Positions 3,592 through 14,005 of a stretch of 64,000 nucleotides of DNA are shown here, piece after piece. The stretch's first letter is position 1. Every line of letters starts with the position of its first letter. Origin of the DNA: Parafrankia elaeagni (lineage in GTDB: Bacteria > Actinomycetota > Actinomycetes > Frankiales > Frankiaceae); contig NZ_KB893724.1 of assembly GCF_000374165.1 (NCBI RefSeq), positions 1 to 64,000 on the forward strand, in the 5' to 3' direction. The notes below the pieces were generated by a model. The model made no database searches. It saw only the letters and a list, made by a program, of their open reading frames with translations, and was not told the DNA's origin. The position numbers and the translations under genes were made by a program.

Positions 3592-5091
3592 GTGCCCGTG
3601 ACGAGCCCCATGGCTAACCCGAACGGAACTATTTACAAACGGTGTAGCTGCCGAGACCCCCAGACCGGTCGGCAGCTGGTGAACAGGTGTCCGAAGCTGC
3701 GGAGGAAGAACGGGGCCTGGCATTCTAGCCACGGCACCTGGGCCTACCGCATTGACCTTCCGACCGCCGGCGGTCGGCGCCAGGAGGCCCGCCGGTCCGG
3801 CTTGGCCACGCGCGACCAGGCTAACGCCGAGATCAGGCGCATCCAGGATCTCCTGGCCATTCCTGGCACCGACACTCACGGTATCGACCAGATCCGTACG
3901 CTCATCCTCGACGCGCTCAAGGCCGGGGATCCGTTGCCGGACCCCGCGGTCGTGAAGGAGCGGTACCGGCGCCGCGCGGACCTCAACCCACAGATCACTG
4001 TCGCGGACTGGTTGAACACCTGGCTGACGGGACGGCGCACCATCCGGCGGTCCACCCGCGAAGGCTACGAGATAACGATCCGCATGCACCTGGTGCCCTT
4101 CGTCGGAGATATCCGTCTCGATCAGCTGACCATCGGCCATCTCGATGACATGTTCGACCGGATCGACATCCGTAACGAAACGATCCGCCGGATCCGCGCC
4201 GGGAAAGACCCCGAACTCCGCGCAAGGTTCAAAGGCCAGAAAGTCACCAGCGACGCCTACAAACAGCGGATCCGCGCCACACTCCGCGCCGCGCTCAACC
4301 ACGCCATCCGCATCGGGCTGATCACATTCAACCCGGCGGCTTGGGTGGAACTACCCTCCGGGAAACGCCCCAAAGCACTGCTGTGGACGAAGGAACGCGT
4401 CGCCCGCTGGCACGCCACCGGCGAGATCCCCTCACCCGTGATGGTGTGGACCCCGGCCCAGACCGGGGCTTTCCTCGACCACGCGGAAACCCGGAACGAC
4501 CGCTACTACGAGCTGTATCACCTCATCGCCCACCGTGGTCTTCGCCGCGGAGAGGCCTGCGGTGTCCACTGGACCGACCTCAACCTCGACGTCGACGAGG
4601 GCAGTCTCACCGTCCGCTGGCAAATCACCCAGCACGGCGCGGACACCGTGATGGGCGCCCCGAAATCCGACGCCGGGGACCGGCAGATCTCCCTCGACGC
4701 CGACACCGTCACCGTTCTCCGCCACCGCCGTTCCCGCCAGAACGCCCACCGGCTCTCCCACGGCAGGAACTGGACCGACAGCGGCCTGGTCTTCACCGAA
4801 CCGAACGGTGCGCCGCTCATCCCCGACGACGTCACCTCACACTTCAAGGAACTCGTCACCGCCGCCGGTCTGCCTCCGATCCGGCTGCACGACCTCCGCC
4901 ACGGCGCCGCCACCCTCGCCCTCGCGGCCGGCGCCGATATCAAAACCGTCCAGGAACTCCTCGGACACGCCAGCATCGCGATCACCGCCGACACCTACGC
5001 CCATATCCTTCCCGAACTCGCCCGCGAAGTAGCCGAGAACGTCGCCCGCCTCATCCCCCGACAGAAAACCGCACCCACCATCAAGGCATAG
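3592..5091 (+). CDS. int: Tyrosine recombinase / phage-type integrase
   Basis: 499 aa from GTG 3592; GTG 3598 with GGAG five bases upstream is an equally good start. The N-terminus (C18, C20, C33 around NGTIYKRCSC) is the arm-site binding region common in actinobacterial integrases. Residues 135-250 form the SAM-like core-binding domain (TVADWLNTWLTG). The catalytic domain shows Arg near 319 (RGLRRGEA), HDLRHG at 433-438, GHAS at 458-461 and the nucleophile Tyr near 469 (DTYAHI), so the R-H-x-x-R-H-Y set is complete. It should integrate and excise the element. No tRNA or obvious att core lies directly downstream, which is unusual for this family. Confidence 0.95.
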   Translation: MPVTSPMANPNGTIYKRCSCRDPQTGRQLVNRCPKLRRKNGAWHSSHGTWAYRIDLPTAGGRRQEARRSGLATRDQANAEIRRIQDLLAIPGTDTHGIDQIRTLILDALKAGDPLPDPAVVKERYRRRADLNPQITVADWLNTWLTGRRTIRRSTREGYEITIRMHLVPFVGDIRLDQLTIGHLDDMFDRIDIRNETIRRIRAGKDPELRARFKGQKVTSDAYKQRIRATLRAALNHAIRIGLITFNPAAWVELPSGKRPKALLWTKERVARWHATGEIPSPVMVWTPAQTGAFLDHAETRNDRYYELYHLIAHRGLRRGEACGVHWTDLNLDVDEGSLTVRWQITQHGADTVMGAPKSDAGDRQISLDADTVTVLRHRRSRQNAHRLSHGRNWTDSGLVFTEPNGAPLIPDDVTSHFKELVTAAGLPPIRLHDLRHGAATLALAAGADIKTVQELLGHASIAITADTYAHILPELAREVAENVARLIPRQKTAPTIKA

Positions 5092-5258: not shown

Positions 5259-5615
5259 TTAGGGTCCTTCGAGGCCGATGACGGTTCCGAACGGGTCGAT
5301 GATCTGGCAGATCCTTCGCCCTTCGGACACGGTGAGCGGGCCCCGATGGTGGACGCAGCCCGCAGCGAGGAGACGCCCGCGGGCGGCGTCGAGGTCTGCG
5401 ACGGCCCAGTAGACGACGGGGGAGCCGCCGCGGGGGTTGCGGTCGTCGTCGGCCTGGTGGAAGCCGATCTCGACGCCTGCGGTGGTGAGCCAGGCGTAGA
5501 CCGATTCCCCGTCGATGTCGAGATGGACCTCTGCGCCGAGTTGGTCGGCCCACCAGCGCGCGGATTTCTCGGGGTCGTCGGCGAACGTCATGACGGTGGT
5601 GACGGGACCGAACAT
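5259..5615 (-). CDS. VOC-family (glyoxalase/dioxygenase fold) protein
   Basis: 118 aa from ATG 5615. It is a single VOC domain: an opening strand and helix (VMTFADDPEKSARWWADQLG), a central strand EIGFHQADD, then YWAVADLDAARGRLLAAG and the end motif DPFGTVIGLEGP. VOC proteins bind metal and act as glyoxalases, extradiol dioxygenases or drug-binding resistance proteins; the substrate cannot be told here. It is the last gene of the minus-strand group that includes the kinase-like and MBL-fold genes, 71 bases after the kinase-like stop, so it may belong to the same transcript. Confidence 0.85.
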   Translation of the reverse strand: MFGPVTTVMTFADDPEKSARWWADQLGAEVHLDIDGESVYAWLTTAGVEIGFHQADDDRNPRGGSPVVYWAVADLDAARGRLLAAGCVHHRGPLTVSEGRRICQIIDPFGTVIGLEGP

Positions 5616-5686
5616 GGGGTGGGGCCTCTCCGCGGGCGGGCGATGATCTGGAGAGGCTACCCAGCCGTCTCGGGCCTGTGATCGGT

Positions 5687-6556
5687 TCAGAGGTCGAGTC
5701 CGTGCAGCGAGGTCAGTCCGGTGGCCGCCGCGAAGCCGCCGAGTGCTGCGAGCAGGTTTCGGTCGGTCCAGGTCACTCCGACGCGGGCCAAGTGGTGGAG
5801 GTAACGGGCGCGTACCCACGGTCCCGGCCGAGGGTGGTGTGCGCGGGTGGCCAGGTAGGCGAGTGTCACGACGTCCGGGAGGCCGGTGACGTCTGGACGT
5901 AGGGTCTCGACGTCGACGAGCGCGAGCCGTCCGCTGGACTGGCGGCGGACATGGTCGGCTGCCAGGTCGAGGTTGCCCACCGGGACATGCGCGGGTCCGT
6001 GCGCGGTGGCGACGAGGTGCAGCATCCGCCGCCACGAGGGCGCGTCCTCGACCCAGGGCGGATCCTGGGTCAGCAGGGTGTCCACCCGCCACTGCACCAT
6101 CGCCTCGCGCACGGCCGGTTCCCATCGTGCGGATGCGGTGTGCACGCGTGCCACCAGGTTGATCAGGTCGTCGAAGACGTCGAGGTCGGTGAGGTCGGCT
6201 GTGTCGGGCAGGTAGTCGACGAGCAGGGTGCGGGCCTCGTCGCAGCTTCCTCGCAGGCACGGGAGGAGCCGCTCGGCAGCCAGCAGGTCGTAGGCGAGGC
6301 GTTCCCCGAGGTAGGCGGCTTCGTCCGCATGCCATTTGACGATCACGTGGGGAGGATCGCCCACGGTGAACGTCGCGGACCGGTCCCGGGTGGTGAGGCA
6401 GCATACCGGCCCGGTCGTGTCGGGATGGTGGGTGGCGAGGAGTTGGCGGGCTTGTGCGGTGACGGTGTCGCGGTCCGTGGTGAGGGGACGGGCGAGCCAC
6501 CGCTGCGGGCGGGGGTGGGCTGCGCCGGCGAGGGGTCCGGCGGCGACGGCGGTCAC
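5687..6556 (-). CDS. Aminoglycoside-phosphotransferase-like protein
   Basis: 289 aa from GTG 6556, which overlaps the stop of the MBL gene (GTGA), showing translational coupling. The fold is recognisable: a nucleotide-binding N-lobe strand with the ATP lysine in HVIVKWHADEAAYLGERLAYDLL, then a C-lobe with the catalytic-loop region VGNLDLAADHV and the metal-binding LALVDVETLRPD. The usual catalytic loop is HGDxxxxN; here His-Gly is replaced by Gly-Asn (GNLD), though the Asp is kept, so activity is likely altered or aimed at an unusual substrate. Kinase-like proteins of this superfamily occur in peptide (RiPP) clusters as well as in antibiotic resistance. The link to the 42-aa peptide is inference from gene order. 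Confidence 0.75.
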   Translation of the reverse strand: MTAVAAGPLAGAAHPRPQRWLARPLTTDRDTVTAQARQLLATHHPDTTGPVCCLTTRDRSATFTVGDPPHVIVKWHADEAAYLGERLAYDLLAAERLLPCLRGSCDEARTLLVDYLPDTADLTDLDVFDDLINLVARVHTASARWEPAVREAMVQWRVDTLLTQDPPWVEDAPSWRRMLHLVATAHGPAHVPVGNLDLAADHVRRQSSGRLALVDVETLRPDVTGLPDVVTLAYLATRAHHPRPGPWVRARYLHHLARVGVTWTDRNLLAALGGFAAATGLTSLHGLDL

Positions 6557-8058
6557 GGCGCGCTCGGGGCCGGCGCCAGGCCGGTGAGCCGGGCGAGGCT
6601 TTCGGTGTAGCAGCGGGCGGCGAGGTCGGGGCGCTGGTGTTCGCCGTAGACGGCGAACAGGGCGTAGACCGGGGAGTCGAGCCGTTCGCCGACGTACCAG
6701 CCCTGGTAGGAGCCGCCGACGATGTCCCAGACCTGCAGGCGGCCGGCGAGCAGGGCGACGAGATCCTGGTAGAAGATCTCGATCCCGAACGGGTAGGTGG
6801 CCATGGCCTCGTCCCGCAGGGTTGTCGGGACGGGCGCGAACGCCGGGCCGGTGATGTCCCAGGCGTAGGAGGCGATCTGGTCGAGACGGCCGGGTGGGGC
6901 GAGCAGTCGCAGCAGCAGGCGGCGGCCGTCGAGGGGGCCGTACAGGTAGTCGTGCAGCGAGGTGGCGAGCGCGCCGGTGCGGGTAGCGATCAGATGCCGG
7001 GCCAGCCGCGGGAGTTCGGCGGCGACGAGCCGCTGTACGGCGGCGCTGTCCTCGGGGGGGATCGCAGGGCCGACCGGGGTCGGTTCGACCGGCCGCGGGT
7101 CGGCGAGGAAGGCGTCGAGCCTGTCGAGACCCGCCTGCTCGGCGGCGGCGTCGATGCTGACCCAGGCGGCCGAGCCGGTGGTGAGGGGCCCGTCGGGTGG
7201 GACGGTGAGCTGGTCGCCGGGCCGCGGGCCGTGGACCCGGAACAGATGCTGGAGCAGGTTCGCGGCCTGGGCGAGGGCCCGGTGGTCGGCGTAGAGGAAC
7301 GGTCCGTGGGGGCTGCGGGGGGCGGTGAACCCGTTCCCGCACAGCGCCACCTCGCGGACCCCGTCCAGCGGTTCCAGATAGTCGATCAGCAGCGTGTGCA
7401 GCGCCTGGATACCGGTGGTGCGATGACGCGGCCCGTCGAGACCGGGCAGCAGGTTGACGTCCGCGCCGAGCGCGCCGTACGGCACGGACTGGGTGTTGTT
7501 CGACACGACCGCCAGCCATGGCACCGGCATTCGCCCGGCGCGGATCTGTTCCACATACAGGTCGGAGATGTCGGCATCGACACCGATGAACACATCCCGC
7601 GCCGATCCGGCGCGGCGGACGACGGGCTGCACGACCCGGCTTTCCCAGAACAGGGTGCGCGCTCCCGCCGGGTACAACCACACCTCAAGATCACCGATGG
7701 TGATGGGCTGGTGGTGGCTGTGGCGGTGGACGGTGAACCCGAGTGTGGTCAGCGCCTCGACGACGGCGGCGGGCAGCGTCTGCCCGGTGTGGATCGGGGT
7801 CGTGCGGTCCAGCAGAGCCAGTGACGCGAAGTGCAGATGGTCAAGGTGCTCGTGGGTGAGGAGGACCGCGTCCGGGGCGGGCATCGCCCCGTGATCGACG
7901 CGCCGCGGCGGCCAGACGGGAAACTCGACGGCGCCCGCGCCGAACGCGGGGGTGAGGATCGGATCGACCAGCACGACCGTGTCACCGGCGCGCAGGTGCC
8001 AGCTCTGGTGGCCGAGGAACGTCAGCTCGACGGATCCGGCAGAAGCAGCGGATGACAT
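6553..8058 (-). CDS. Long metallo-beta-lactamase-fold hydrolase with an unknown C-terminal domain
   Basis: 501 aa from ATG 8058, with AAGGGAG about 8 bases upstream. Residues 10-260 are an MBL-fold domain: ELTFLGHQSWHL, DTVVLVDPIL, the metal motif THEHLDHLH (His69, His71, Asp73, His74), and later ALCGNGF. This resembles the UlaG/lactamase_B_2 group rather than true beta-lactamases. The C-terminal 230 residues (with SLHDYLYGPLDGRRLLLRLL, and FGIEIFYQDLVALLAGRLQVWDIVGGSY) match nothing I know. Typical MBL hydrolases are 200-350 aa, so the extension is a distinctive feature. It lies 85 bases downstream of the 42-aa peptide gene and is coupled to the phosphotransferase-like gene. Confidence 0.85.
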   Translation of the reverse strand: MSSAASAGSVELTFLGHQSWHLRAGDTVVLVDPILTPAFGAGAVEFPVWPPRRVDHGAMPAPDAVLLTHEHLDHLHFASLALLDRTTPIHTGQTLPAAVVEALTTLGFTVHRHSHHQPITIGDLEVWLYPAGARTLFWESRVVQPVVRRAGSARDVFIGVDADISDLYVEQIRAGRMPVPWLAVVSNNTQSVPYGALGADVNLLPGLDGPRHRTTGIQALHTLLIDYLEPLDGVREVALCGNGFTAPRSPHGPFLYADHRALAQAANLLQHLFRVHGPRPGDQLTVPPDGPLTTGSAAWVSIDAAAEQAGLDRLDAFLADPRPVEPTPVGPAIPPEDSAAVQRLVAAELPRLARHLIATRTGALATSLHDYLYGPLDGRRLLLRLLAPPGRLDQIASYAWDITGPAFAPVPTTLRDEAMATYPFGIEIFYQDLVALLAGRLQVWDIVGGSYQGWYVGERLDSPVYALFAVYGEHQRPDLAARCYTESLARLTGLAPAPSAP

Positions 8059-8143
8059 GCGGGGCTCCCTTCGACAACAGCGGCGACCGAGGCCGGGGCG
8101 CGGGTCTCACCGGACGGTGTCCCCGCACCCCGGCCACGGGGCT

Positions 8144-8272
8144 CTACCGGTGGTAGGCGACCAGGGCGGTCGAGGTGACACCGGTCCCGGCGAACGCGGC
8201 GACCCGGCGCTGGAACGCCGCGACCGCCTCCGCCGTCGGCGCGGCCGGCGGGGTACTGGTGCTGGTGGTCAT
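8144..8272 (-). CDS. 42-residue peptide gene heading the MBL/kinase-like cluster
   Basis: 42 codons from ATG 8272 to TAG. CAGGAGAG lies 7 bases before the ATG, a strong ribosome site, which argues that this tiny frame is translated. The peptide starts MTTSTSTPPAAPTAEAVAAF, continues with an amphipathic Arg-containing stretch (QRRVAAFAG) and ends TGVTSTALVAYHR. It has no Cys and no signal peptide. The Thr/Ser-rich end after a helical leader-like half recalls ribosomal peptide (RiPP) precursors, but it could also be a small structural or regulatory protein. The next genes are MBL-fold, phosphotransferase-like and VOC; a TPR regulator diverges from it. The coding call is good; the function is unknown. 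Confidence 0.6.
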   Translation of the reverse strand: MTTSTSTPPAAPTAEAVAAFQRRVAAFAGTGVTSTALVAYHR

Positions 8273-8330
8273 GTGCACTCTCCTGTGGGTGAACCCGAAG
8301 CGGCCTGTACCGCCCCGGTGCACCTATCAG

Positions 8331-8402
8331 GGAAGCGCTTCCTGCCATGCAGGAACAGCTCCTGGGGTTTCTCTTGGTTTCTCTCGTATTGCGCTGTTTC
8401 TC
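8331..8402. promoter_or_regulatory. Divergent control region with a 12-bp palindrome and three phased GTTTCTC repeats
   Basis: Between the peptide gene and the regulator lie the palindrome GGAAGCGCTTCC (8331-8342) and three direct GTTTCTC repeats at 8367, 8377 and 8396, spaced 10 and 19 bases, about one and two helical turns. Same-face spacing suggests binding sites for the adjacent regulator. Confidence 0.5.
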
Positions 8403-8452
8403 GCGGTCCGTCATCCTTGAAACGCCCGTCTCCAACGACAGGAGAAGAGCGG

Positions 8453-9823
8453 ATGCCTCGACCCCGCGCCACACCTATCCAGAACATGCGGTTAGCGTGT
8501 CTGATTGAGGAAACGGGACGCACCTACACCGCTATCGCCGCTATGATCCGCCGCGTCAGCGGCGAAAACGGCACCGAGACGCGGTGCACCGCCGCGTCAC
8601 TGGCACGTTGGCTCAACGGCGCCGCCCCCCAGCCGGCGATCGTTCCTGCTGCGGTAGAAGCATTCGCTCGCCTTCTTGACCGGCCCGTACTCACCCCGGC
8701 TGACCTAGGCTGGTCGTCGGGCTCCACAACCCGCGATGCGCAATCCGAGGACCCCTGGCGCGGTGACCCCGTCGCCTGGGTCATCCGCCTGGGACGGACT
8801 GACATGCTCAACAGACGTGCGGCGGTCACGGCCGGCCTCTACTCCCTGGCCGCCGCCGCTACCCCACTTCCACCTGCGGCCCGACCAGCCACCCGGCCTG
8901 GCACGTCGATCCGCGTCGGTCCGGCCGACGTGACCCGGGTCCACGCGATGGCCGCGTACTTCGGTGAGATCGACGATCTGTTCGGTGGCGGCCACGCCCG
9001 CTCGGCGGTCGCCGCCTACCTCGTCAACGACGTCGCCCCCCTACTCCAGGGCGCGTCCGGCCCGATCCGCGCGGACCTGTTCACCGCCGCCGCCGAGGTC
9101 ACCTACCTCGCCGGGTGGATGGCCGCCGACGACCTTCAACCCGGTCTCGCGCAGCGCTACTACATCCAGGTCGTCCGGCTCGCCGCCGAAGCCGACGCCC
9201 CCCTGATGCGGGCCACCGCGCTACGTTCCCTGGCCTCACAAGCAGTGGAACTGGGACACCCCGCCCAGGGCCTCGCGCTGGCGGACGCCGCCGCCGACGC
9301 CCTCCACAACACCGCACCCGCCCGTACCCGGGCGTGGGTGAACGGCATGCGCGCCGAGGCCCTCGCCGCCACCGGCCACAACCCACGCCGGGTGATCAGG
9401 CTGCTGGCCAGCACCGAAACAGACCTCGAACGCGCCGACAGCCCACCAGCGTCCGACCTGACCGGTAACTACCGCCGCGAAGGCTTCGAACACCAAGTCG
9501 GACTGACGCTGCTGAACATGGGCGACCTGCCCGGCGCGGAGGAACACCTCTCCGCGTCCACCGCCGCGCGCAGACCCGACGAACGCCGGACCCGCGCGCT
9601 CATCGGAACCCGCCTCGCCACCGTACAGATCCGCCAGCACCGACCCGAAGCAGCCGCGGCCACGCTTCTCGGACTGGCCGACGACCTCACAGCGGTGAAA
9701 TCCGCGCGCCTACGCCGGACACTCGGTCAGATCCGCAGCTCCTGGCAGACGAGCCGCGGCGACCCGACAGTGGCTCAGGCGGATCGGTTGCTGCTCTCGG
9801 CGCGAGCCACGGGCGGGACGTAG
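8453..9823 (+). CDS. Helix-turn-helix regulator with TPR-like sensor region (module 1)
   Basis: 456 aa from ATG 8453, with AGGAGAAG about 7 bases upstream. Residues 8-75 look like an XRE-type DNA-binding region (MRLACLIEETGRTYTAIAAM, then CTAASLARWLNG). A short hydrophobic Ala stretch after LNRRAAVTAGLYSLAAAAT follows, then an alpha-helical repeat region (about 170-450) of TPR type with AxxxxxxGxxxxALxxAxxA patterns such as LRSLASQAVELGHPAQGLAL. Regulators of this build are common in actinomycetes next to small peptide or secondary-metabolite genes. The gene diverges from the 42-aa peptide gene, so control of that cluster is the natural inference. Its ligand is unknown. Confidence 0.85.
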   Translation: MPRPRATPIQNMRLACLIEETGRTYTAIAAMIRRVSGENGTETRCTAASLARWLNGAAPQPAIVPAAVEAFARLLDRPVLTPADLGWSSGSTTRDAQSEDPWRGDPVAWVIRLGRTDMLNRRAAVTAGLYSLAAAATPLPPAARPATRPGTSIRVGPADVTRVHAMAAYFGEIDDLFGGGHARSAVAAYLVNDVAPLLQGASGPIRADLFTAAAEVTYLAGWMAADDLQPGLAQRYYIQVVRLAAEADAPLMRATALRSLASQAVELGHPAQGLALADAAADALHNTAPARTRAWVNGMRAEALAATGHNPRRVIRLLASTETDLERADSPPASDLTGNYRREGFEHQVGLTLLNMGDLPGAEEHLSASTAARRPDERRTRALIGTRLATVQIRQHRPEAAAATLLGLADDLTAVKSARLRRTLGQIRSSWQTSRGDPTVAQADRLLLSARATGGT

Positions 9824-10139: not shown

Positions 10140-10760
10140 TTAGCCCGCGTTGTAGCGGAACGTGAAGTGGTGCCGACGGCCGCCTTCCTGCACGCCGATC
10201 GACTCGTAGTGCTCGAACAGCACAGCGAGCCGGCGGTGGGTCTCGTCCTGGCCGATCCAGTACCGGCGGGGTATGACGCCCCAGTTCGCCGCCGCGTAGA
10301 CCTGGTCGGTGTAGTCGTCCTCGTCGTAGGTGGCCCGCTTGTTTCCCGTGCTGTGGATGAACACGAGGCCCAGTTCGGTCTGGATCCGGGACAGGGTCGT
10401 GAACTGTGCGGTGAGCGCGCGGACCATCTCCTCGACCGGGGCGGACACGTCGAGGTCGGCGAGGCGCTCGTCCGCGGTCAGTTCGTAGACGGCTGCCTTC
10501 ATGGCCAGGACCTTCACCGCTTCGGTGACCAGGTGTGGCGCGTCGTCGTCGAGGTCCCATTCGGCGATGAGAGGAAGGCCGGTGAAGGTCGCCCAGCTGT
10601 CCGGGTACGTCAAGGTGCTGGTGCGCAGCCGGTCGAACTCGCGGTGGTTGCGGATCTCGTCGAAGATCTTCCCGGCGCGGCGCGCGACCTCGAACGAGTT
10701 CGGGAGAGCCTCCCGCCCGTCCGCGTCGGACAGCACGGCGGCGATGGTGCTGGTGGTCAT
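10140..10760 (-). CDS. 206-aa protein of unknown function (module 2)
   Basis: From ATG 10760, with AGGAGG 7 bases upstream, a near-ideal ribosome site. It begins MTTSTIAAVLSDADG, sharing MTTST with the 42-aa peptide of module 1, then continues as a soluble, mixed helical protein (KIFDEIRNHREFDRLRTSTL, AVKVLAMKAAVYELTADERL) with a C-terminal half rich in aromatic and His residues (YWIGQDETHRRLAVLFEHYE, RRHHFTFRYNAG). I do not recognise a family or a catalytic motif. It diverges from a TPR regulator exactly as the peptide gene does, so the two modules may be built on one plan. No membrane segment or signal peptide is seen. Confidence 0.75.
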   Translation of the reverse strand: MTTSTIAAVLSDADGREALPNSFEVARRAGKIFDEIRNHREFDRLRTSTLTYPDSWATFTGLPLIAEWDLDDDAPHLVTEAVKVLAMKAAVYELTADERLADLDVSAPVEEMVRALTAQFTTLSRIQTELGLVFIHSTGNKRATYDEDDYTDQVYAAANWGVIPRRYWIGQDETHRRLAVLFEHYESIGVQEGGRRHHFTFRYNAG

Positions 10761-10944
10761 GAGAGCCTCCTGGCTCACTCGTGAGGATGGGACCGGTACC
10801 CCGACGGGCTGGACGCCGACGCTGTCAGGGCAGGTGCCAGACCGGCCCCGCCCGCGGATTGGCCCAGGTCCGGGACAGTGGCCGACGTGTGTCCCGCCGT
10901 GCACGATCCATGACACACTGCGCACCAGATGCGAGACAGATTGC

Positions 10945-10997
10945 GTGCCGCACACGCGATATGTGCTGCCAGCACCCGCCGTGCGTGCGTGCGGCAC
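10945..10997. promoter_or_regulatory. Inverted repeat in the module 2 divergent promoter
   Basis: GTGCCGCAC (10945-10953) and GTGCGGCAC (10989-10997) are exact reverse complements 35 bases apart, between the 206-aa gene and its divergent regulator. A plausible operator; not proven. Confidence 0.4.
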
Positions 10998-11032
10998 ACA
11001 TCCCAGTACCGCGGTTCGGGAGGGGGCGTCCC

Positions 11033-12445
11033 GTGCAGAATGGCCACCGCCAGCCACGACCAGCTCGTGCGCGCTACATCGAGCACGCCGAGGCTTTGAT
11101 GCGGCAGAAGCACCTCAGCTACACCAGGCTGGCCGAGGAGATGACCACGGTCGCCGGCTGGCGCCGGATCGACCGGGCCACCGCGACCGCCGCGGTTCGG
11201 GGCCACCAATCAGGAAAACCGCATCTCCTACCCACACGGGAGACCGTGGAGCACCTCGATCAAGCCCTGGGCGCCGCCGGGGAACTCGTCGCCCTGTGGT
11301 GGGACGCCTCCATGGAGGACCACGCCATTCAGATCGGGGACAGATCACCGGGCACATCCGCGGGTATAGGTGGACGTGCCGGCGCCGGTCCGGCGACAGT
11401 GGAGCGAGGCGAGGAGGTGAGTCCCACGAATCGACGCGACGCCCTACGCGGCGGGCTGGTGCTCGGTTCAACGGCGGCGGCAGCCGCACTCTCTGAACGC
11501 ATCGCGGCAGCCGACCCACGCCCCGCCAAACTGGACCAGTACGAAGCCGACATCCACCACATCGCCAGGGTGTACCGCACCACCCCACATCATGATCTCG
11601 CGGAGCGCCTCGAACCGGCCTGGGCGCACACCGAAGGCTTCCTCGACACCCGTGTGTCAGCCAGGACCCGTCACCGGCTCACGTGGATCGCGGGCTGGCA
11701 GGCGTTCTACCTCGGAACGCTCGGCTTCGACACCGGCGATGACGACGCGGCACGCGAGTTCCTCTCCCTCGCAGGCCAGCACGCCACCGACATCGGCGAT
11801 CGGCTCCTCGCCGGTTCGGCCGCCGCCATGCGCTCCACGGTCGCCTACTTCACCGGCGCCTACGACACAGCCGCGGACATCGCCCACCAGGCCAGGCAGA
11901 ACGCCCACAGCTACACCCGGCCGGTCCTCGCCGGCTGCGAGGCACGCGCGGCGGCCCTCGCGGGCCGACCCGAGGACGCCCACACCGCACTCGCGGACAT
12001 GCAGGACCACGTCTGGACCGGAGGAGTCATGCCCGGACCGAACCCAGGCGACGAAGCGTTCACCCACGCGTTCCTCGCGGTCACCTACTCCCACCTCGGA
12101 AAGGGAAAACGAGCCGAGCAGCACGCACAGACCGGCCTCGACCTCGAACTCGCCCACGGCCCCGGCCCCGGCCCCGGCCCCGGCCACTATGTCCAGGTCT
12201 CCGGGAAGTACACGGCGCTCGCGTTGACCCTCCTCCACCGAGAAGATCCCGACCCCGAACAGGCCGCCACGGCCACACGGCAGGCACTCACCGTCCTCGG
12301 CAACACACCCACCCGCAGCACGATCCAACGCGCCGGAGAGGTATGGCGCGACATGAACGGACGCTGGCACGAGCTCCCAGCCGTCCGAGACCTCGGCGAG
12401 ATGATCACCCAACAGCGGCGCGCTCTCCCAGCCGCGACGGCCTGA
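11033..12445 (+). CDS. Helix-turn-helix regulator with TPR-like sensor region (module 2)
   Basis: 470 aa from GTG 11033, chosen because GGGAGGGGG lies 6 bases upstream; earlier in-frame starts would add a Cys/Arg-rich stretch unlike a protein N-terminus. Residues 10-80 form an XRE-like region (HAEALMRQKHLSYTRLAEEM, ETVEHLDQALGAAGELVALW). As in module 1, a TNRRDALRGGLVLGSTAAAA segment precedes the helical repeat region (EADIHHIARVYRTTP, DIAHQARQNAHSYTRPVLAG). A GPGPGPGPG run, encoded by a CCCCGG repeat near 12160-12184, lies in one repeat and could vary in length. It probably controls the divergent 206-aa gene. Confidence 0.85.
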   Translation: MQNGHRQPRPARARYIEHAEALMRQKHLSYTRLAEEMTTVAGWRRIDRATATAAVRGHQSGKPHLLPTRETVEHLDQALGAAGELVALWWDASMEDHAIQIGDRSPGTSAGIGGRAGAGPATVERGEEVSPTNRRDALRGGLVLGSTAAAAALSERIAAADPRPAKLDQYEADIHHIARVYRTTPHHDLAERLEPAWAHTEGFLDTRVSARTRHRLTWIAGWQAFYLGTLGFDTGDDDAAREFLSLAGQHATDIGDRLLAGSAAAMRSTVAYFTGAYDTAADIAHQARQNAHSYTRPVLAGCEARAAALAGRPEDAHTALADMQDHVWTGGVMPGPNPGDEAFTHAFLAVTYSHLGKGKRAEQHAQTGLDLELAHGPGPGPGPGHYVQVSGKYTALALTLLHREDPDPEQAATATRQALTVLGNTPTRSTIQRAGEVWRDMNGRWHELPAVRDLGEMITQQRRALPAATA

Positions 12446-13929: not shown

Positions 13930-14005
13930 TGGAGCCGGCGAGGGGACTCGAACCCCTAGCCGCTCGATTACAAGTCGAGTGCGCTACCAATTGCGCCACG
14001 CCGGC
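13930..14005 (-). tRNA. tRNA-Thr, anticodon TGT
   Basis: Read on the minus strand: acceptor GCCGGCG pairs with CGCCGGC, D-arm with TGGTAGCGCA, anticodon loop CTTGTAA giving TGT, T-loop GGTTCGAGTCC, then T73 and an encoded CCA (13930-13932). The cloverleaf is complete. The 3' end faces the accessory region, as expected of an integration target. Confidence 0.97.

Follow-up and report, generated by a model that had tools for sequence, protein, structure and literature searches.

In the pyrroloquinoline quinone (PQQ) pathway, the peptide PqqA has an essential Tyr and the protein PqqB has a metallo-β-lactamase (MBL) fold. PqqB is an iron-dependent hydroxylase that works after leader removal, according to the sections of PMC11002830 used here. 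The crocagin precursor CgnA is short, with a C-terminal core that includes Tyr, and is accompanied by the homologous proteins CgnB and CgnE, one of which lacks metal ligands (sections of PMC10070186). Thioamitides and class V lanthipeptides involve a PF01636 phosphotransferase-like protein, a HopA1-type partner and cysteine chemistry (sections of PMC7794033), and the words 'lactamase' and 'metallo' do not occur in the main text of that paper. Here we analyse a locus of Parafrankia elaeagni in which a 42-codon peptide gene heads a group of genes for an MBL-fold protein, a kinase-like protein and a VOC protein. It lies in a 64,000-nt stretch (contig NZ_KB893724.1, positions 1 to 64,000; hereafter, the window) of a 7.6-Mb draft genome, and its MBL protein has its closest named matches in Frankia and Pseudofrankia. 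Loci with the same layout are called type I, and a second form from three Streptomyces genomes, with tandem MBL genes and a different kinase, is called type II.

The locus resembles the PQQ pathway in joining a small ribosomal peptide that carries a key Tyr (essential in PqqA) to an MBL-fold protein; it differs from that pathway in having a kinase instead and a Tyr at the C-terminus, and no radical-SAM gene was recognized in the neighbours scanned. With crocagin it shares a short precursor whose C-terminal core, here a likely one, includes Tyr, and the ligand loss in the CgnB/CgnE pair parallels that in the type-II tandem MBLs, whereas CgnB and CgnE are aminopeptidase-like rather than MBL proteins (sections of PMC10070186) and the present loci have a kinase and an NsdA-family regulator. 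Like the thioamitide and class V lanthipeptide loci, in which a phosphotransferase-like protein is encoded beside small peptides in Streptomyces (sections of PMC7794033), these loci encode such a protein next to a peptide, but PF01636 was matched by 0/13 kinase-like proteins and Cys was present in 0/26 peptides. No description of the peptide/MBL/kinase combination was found in the open-licence PMC literature, and one may exist elsewhere.

The 42-codon frame is a real gene. All four genes lie on the minus strand where the earlier note, made from the window alone, had placed them (Table 1), and the peptide frame has the ribosome site claimed for it: ACAGGAG precedes the ATG at 8272, and the stop codon is at 8144–8146. 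The earlier note staked its case on finding a similar small frame upstream of MBL homologues elsewhere. Such a frame, encoding 40–50 aa, lies immediately 5′ of the long MBL gene in 23/23 intact type-I loci, a set from which repeats of the same contig, recognized by their length and identity, were removed and whose closest MBL pair is 95% identical. These loci come from relatives of Frankia and from Streptomyces, Kitasatospora, Streptantibioticus and Actinomadura. The order is the same in all 23, with peptide, MBL and kinase-like genes following one another downstream and a regulator-like match upstream on the opposite strand. Small genes separate the regulator from the peptide in some of the Streptomyces loci. 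Scanning contigs for the MBL protein turned up 10 loci at 65–81% identity. The peptide was at the same position in each of them and in all five further Frankiaceae genomes that match the MBL in full (four of which apparently hold the same contigs as L001, L002, L003 and L008). When a profile built from 14 peptides was run against 37 genomes, the peptides of G000, G005 and G019, themselves among the 14, were matched at E values of 2.4e-19 to 8.7e-17, and the next match had an E value of 0.015. Conservation and this search together rule out a chance reading frame. Four named plasmids carry the peptide under the annotation 'hypothetical protein'.

Conservation is concentrated in two parts of the peptide. 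The third-last residue is Tyr in 26/26 peptides of both types (25 distinct sequences of 40–50 aa), and the last residue is Arg in 21 and His in 5, giving Tyr-His-Arg or Tyr-His-His in type I and Tyr-Thr-Arg or Tyr-Val-Arg in type II. Among the 22 distinct type-I peptides, Val at −26 and Gln at −22 are invariant, with Arg or Lys at −20, Val or Ile at −19, Thr or Ser at −13 and, in 21/22, Gly at −12; these counts come from related sequences and are not independent. Neither length nor composition is constant in the N-terminal part. The peptide had been likened to small Thr/Ser-rich peptides, a description that does not hold for the family: what stays constant is the Val/Gln/Arg/Val stretch and the Tyr-x-Arg/His end, and not mainly a Thr/Ser-rich core. 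The lack of Cys that was claimed with it extends to all 26 peptides, and no signal sequence was seen.

A conserved peptide encoded beside a protein with an unusual metal site and a kinase-like protein is therefore probably the raw material of a peptide-derived natural product. As in RiPP (ribosomally synthesized and post-translationally modified peptide) systems in general, a short ribosomal precursor is encoded together with putative modifying enzymes. We place at about an even chance a RiPP-like pathway in which the MBL protein would modify the C-terminal Tyr-x-Arg/His and the kinase would act on the peptide or on a released intermediate. The earlier note had left the choice between RiPP precursor, toxin and small regulator open; as far as function can be inferred, a RiPP-like precursor fits best. 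In such a pathway, the divergent NsdA-family regulator would control the operon, and the 40–50-aa peptide would be the precursor, with an N-terminus free to vary in length, a probably helical recognition part in the conserved Val...Gln-x-Arg-Val stretch, and a likely core in the fixed C-terminus (Tyr-His-Arg/His, or Tyr-x-Arg in type II). The MBL protein, with its remodelled site, would bind the peptide and modify its C-terminal end, with the invariant third-last Tyr as the most probable site and oxidative chemistry as one possibility, by analogy with the iron enzymes PqqB and CmlA. The kinase, kinase-like in type I and of the P-loop kind in type II, would phosphorylate the peptide or an intermediate released by a presumed cleavage, and the VOC, GNAT or α/β-hydrolase products may tailor or protect. 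Type-II export would probably proceed through a major facilitator superfamily (MFS) protein.

Table 1. Coordinates of the features of the Parafrankia elaeagni locus, counted from the first base of the window
Feature	Position	Strand	Basis
Candidate precursor peptide gene, 42 aa plus stop, C-terminus Tyr-His-Arg	8144..8272	-	Conserved position, ribosome site
MBL-fold protein, 501 aa, apparently remodelled metal site, C-terminal region without Pfam match	6553..8058	-	PF13483/PF12706
Kinase-like protein, 289 aa, GTG start overlapping MBL stop	5687..6556	-	Invariant kinase-type residues; weak aminoglycoside phosphotransferase (APH) profile link
VOC protein, 118 aa, accessory	5259..5615	-	PF00903
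Divergent NsdA-family (TPR-like) regulator	8453..9823	+	NF053720, 317 bits, cut-off 75
Regulator–peptide intergenic region with conserved block GCAATACG	8273..8452	.	Alignment of six loci, Actinomadura included

The MBL protein bears out the long C-terminal region that had been called unknown. PF13483 and PF12706 matched 20/20 MBL members, in the window within residues 11–131, and nothing in Pfam covers the window protein beyond these residues. His69, His71, Asp73, His74 and Asp161 are present in 23/23 type-I proteins, in agreement with HxHxDH. Judged on sequence only, the further metal-binding His expected in a canonical dinuclear site is lacking in these 23 members, and its places are presumably those occupied by PAGART-like and SNNxQ stretches; the PAGART stretch is exact at two positions in 21/23, and one of the 23 has His at 134. 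The metal site thus appears to be remodelled, with HxHxDH and one Asp kept and the other expected His replaced. In a comparison of the MBL profile with solved structures, NAPE-PLD (E 4.7e-6), SaxA and CmlA (E 0.0016) were matched over the motif region, the CmlA match covering only profile positions 6–125. The likeness to these proteins in the HxHxDH region stops after about residue 130, and they differ from the present family in the other expected metal His, replaced here. PqqB was not among the solved structures matched by the profile, nor was a PqqB model among the NCBIfam matches listed for the window MBL at E values up to 10 (the library presumably includes one). PHROGs returned one marginal MBL match, to a metal-dependent hydrolase family, and no match for kinase or peptide.

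The MBL stop and the GTG start of the kinase-like gene overlap by four bases, GTGA, consistent with the translational coupling proposed earlier. Lys74, Glu85, Asp197 and Asp215 are invariant in 13/13 aligned members, an order that, with roles assigned by inspection, would fit the broad protein-kinase-like series of Lys, Glu, catalytic Asp and metal Asp. The altered catalytic loop reported as GNLD is correct for the window and needs widening for the family, in which the loop reads GHLDLK in 8/13 and GNLDL in 5/13, with N for H and an invariant Asp. On one plasmid the orthologue is annotated by NCBI as a DIPK family protein and on three others as hypothetical; comparison of the kinase profile with solved structures gave unrelated matches only.

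The type-II loci (L054, L055 and L109) encode a peptide, two tandem MBL proteins, a roughly 205-aa P-loop kinase unrelated to the type-I kinase-like protein, and an MFS protein that is 79–82% identical across all three. Nine proteins were tried against the three stretches: the MFS protein, which alone was common to them, seven further neighbours from L054 and a type-I hydrolase. The peptide precedes the MBL pair in 3/3 loci; the three were first spotted from reading frames 5′ of the MBL gene, and the similarity search missed that of L109. Aligned type-II MBLs are 32–34% identical to the window MBL, and in the second MBL of L054 and L055 (that of L109 is outside the alignment) Asn replaces the first His of HxHxDH, giving NxHxDH. 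A search of two type-II genomes, G321 and G441, revealed no homologue of the type-I kinase. That the two types use kinases unrelated to each other suggests that phosphorylation matters; it does not in itself give the substrate. Rather tentatively, the loci may represent a new natural-product class, with the remodelled MBL as its defining enzyme acting on the third-last Tyr and with phosphorylation as a central step, served in the two branches by two unrelated kinase families.

Several observations weigh against the RiPP-like pathway. No dedicated protease, recognized RiPP recognition element (RRE) domain or transporter common to type I was found among the proteins scanned. The kinase-like protein had a Pfam match in 0/13 members at E values up to 5, PF01636 included, and its link to an APH profile (10 usable sequences from 20 APH loci) is weak, with an E value of 0.0033 and an HHsuite probability of 9.7%, above controls of 0.15 for the MBL profile and 0.094 for the best of 10 column shuffles; in that alignment the catalytic loops are offset by one or two residues. 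The kinship with RiPP phosphotransferases raised by the earlier note fails at the Pfam level and is left with no more than this weak profile link. NAPE-PLD is a better structural match of the MBL than CmlA, and all such matches lie mainly in the metal-motif region. A codon-position test on 13 peptide pairs, over the last 27 codons, was mixed: third-position changes were in excess in, for example, window/L001, L001/L002 and L009/L050, L004/L006 and L004/L111 had only first-position, non-synonymous changes, and window/L004 had 12 non-synonymous against 3 synonymous codons. We gave this test no weight in the conclusions. The fixed C-terminal end, too, could serve binding and not be a core. Pfam scans of the peptide, MBL, kinase, VOC and regulator proteins recognized no known RiPP-type enzyme or RRE, and some RiPP classes have neither.

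Some of the same evidence bears on another reading, in which the peptide would be a small subunit, activator or chaperone of the MBL or kinase, its C-terminus docking into the MBL, and the enzymes would act on a non-peptide metabolite. Pairwise distances among peptide, MBL and kinase correlate at 0.90–0.95 over the 23 loci, as would suit both the RiPP-like pathway and a subunit (peptide–MBL, 0.93), and those involving VOC at 0.72–0.82 over 19 loci; 0/500 label permutations were as high in each case, and shared ancestry alone could produce such values. The lack of a protease in the scanned neighbours and the conservation of the C-terminal residues, whereas many RiPP cores vary, favour a subunit as well. 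A peptide whose N-terminus varies freely in length, and of which type II retains Tyr-x-Arg and little else, fits it poorly, and we regard it as unlikely.

If the RiPP-like pathway is correct, the precursor family would escape genome mining that starts from known RiPP enzymes. Its two-enzyme core is small enough for testing in E. coli, mutation has an exact residue target in the invariant Tyr-x-Arg/His end, and the partly altered metal site poses an enzymological question, namely how such a fold acts on a peptide.

All 11 regulators scanned of the 23 loci exceeded the NF053720 cut-off of 75 bits (140–328 bits). The window regulator and the 10 others resemble NsdA-family regulators in this respect and differ from NsdA and NsdB in falling far below both equivalog cut-offs. 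All 11 passed even though several are just 24–32% identical to the query that located them, and the window genome has 18 matches above the cut-off, one of them elsewhere in the window (11090–12400, 86 bits); the repeated type of neighbour is thus unlikely to be accidental. This pairing is what would be expected if the peptide, modified or not, were a signal sensed by the divergent helix-turn-helix/tetratricopeptide repeat (TPR) regulator, as in the RRNPP systems of Firmicutes, in which pheromone peptides are bound by TPR-type proteins. The RRNPP signal is exported, whereas the present peptide has no signal sequence. A general pairing of the regulator family with such peptides was rejected: 15 other sites of the genome and the window's two (C85:32888 left out) were scanned, up to 900 bases away, for frames of at least 25 aa preceded by a ribosome site, and the window peptide was the one listed frame ending in Tyr-x-Arg/His. 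No regulator-like match was found by similarity search at any of the three type-II loci. These two results therefore weigh against a general peptide-receptor role, and we consider a sensed signal improbable.

The cassette is patchy in distribution and partly plasmid-borne. A sample of 394 genomes from the class gave six matches, all Frankiaceae already known, and in the window's own family 6/36 genomes carry the cassette. In Streptomycetaceae, the MBL was matched in 9/394 genomes (five intact type I, two degraded and two type II), and a type-II MBL query matched 8/392 Streptomyces genomes (five type I and three type II). Among 72,556 plasmid records, 5 matched, one of them degraded. Plasmid carriage and patchiness, with a Zeta-toxin profile match of the type-II P-loop kinase (6.5e-6), would suit a toxin–antitoxin or defence module on plasmids or mobile regions. 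That kinase, however, is closer to AAA_33 and also matches shikimate kinase, and such modules do not usually come with VOC, GNAT and MFS partners. PADLOC was negative for the type-I MBL, kinase, regulator and peptide and for the type-II MBLs; the type-II kinase gave P-loop matches that were weak, and a defence system was rejected. We hold a module of this kind to be very improbable. The distribution, together with the co-occurrence of the genes, the C-terminal motif and the MFS gene shared by type II, supports the 'new peptide or metabolite system' of the earlier note, whose interpretation is partly supported overall.

Accessory genes vary among type-I loci: VOC, assigned in the window as the earlier note had it, occurs in 19/23 (on the other strand in three), GNAT in 8/23 and α/β-hydrolase in 3/23. 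The GNAT that closes the Streptomyces cassettes (L004:10780-11412 and relatives) has a Cys-rich tail, reading CIDCFC in L004. On plasmid NZ_CP129127, VOC was not found at L070, and the cassette kinase is followed by a further kinase-like gene (L070:11416-12258), whose Pkinase match is weak and does not reach the cut-off. Similarity searches gave no peptide match at four copies that are truncated or broken (L053, L056, L057 and L071). One of these, L057 (G000:C14:8119-10504), is a second copy in the window's own genome with MBL (from about residue 134), kinase and VOC, without the N-terminal metal motif. A phage-type integrase gene (3592–5091, plus strand) lies directly beside the VOC end of the window cassette. 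An integrative element was rejected despite the integrase, as no repeat of at least 14 bases of the tRNA-Thr (13930–14005) region was present in the window.

The block GCAATACG between regulator and peptide is a possible operator or promoter element. The second NsdA-family regulator of the window is divergent from a gene of about 206–214 aa without a clear Pfam family (region 10143–12400), and a similar gene is divergent from another NsdA-family regulator of the same genome, at G000:C90 (L140).

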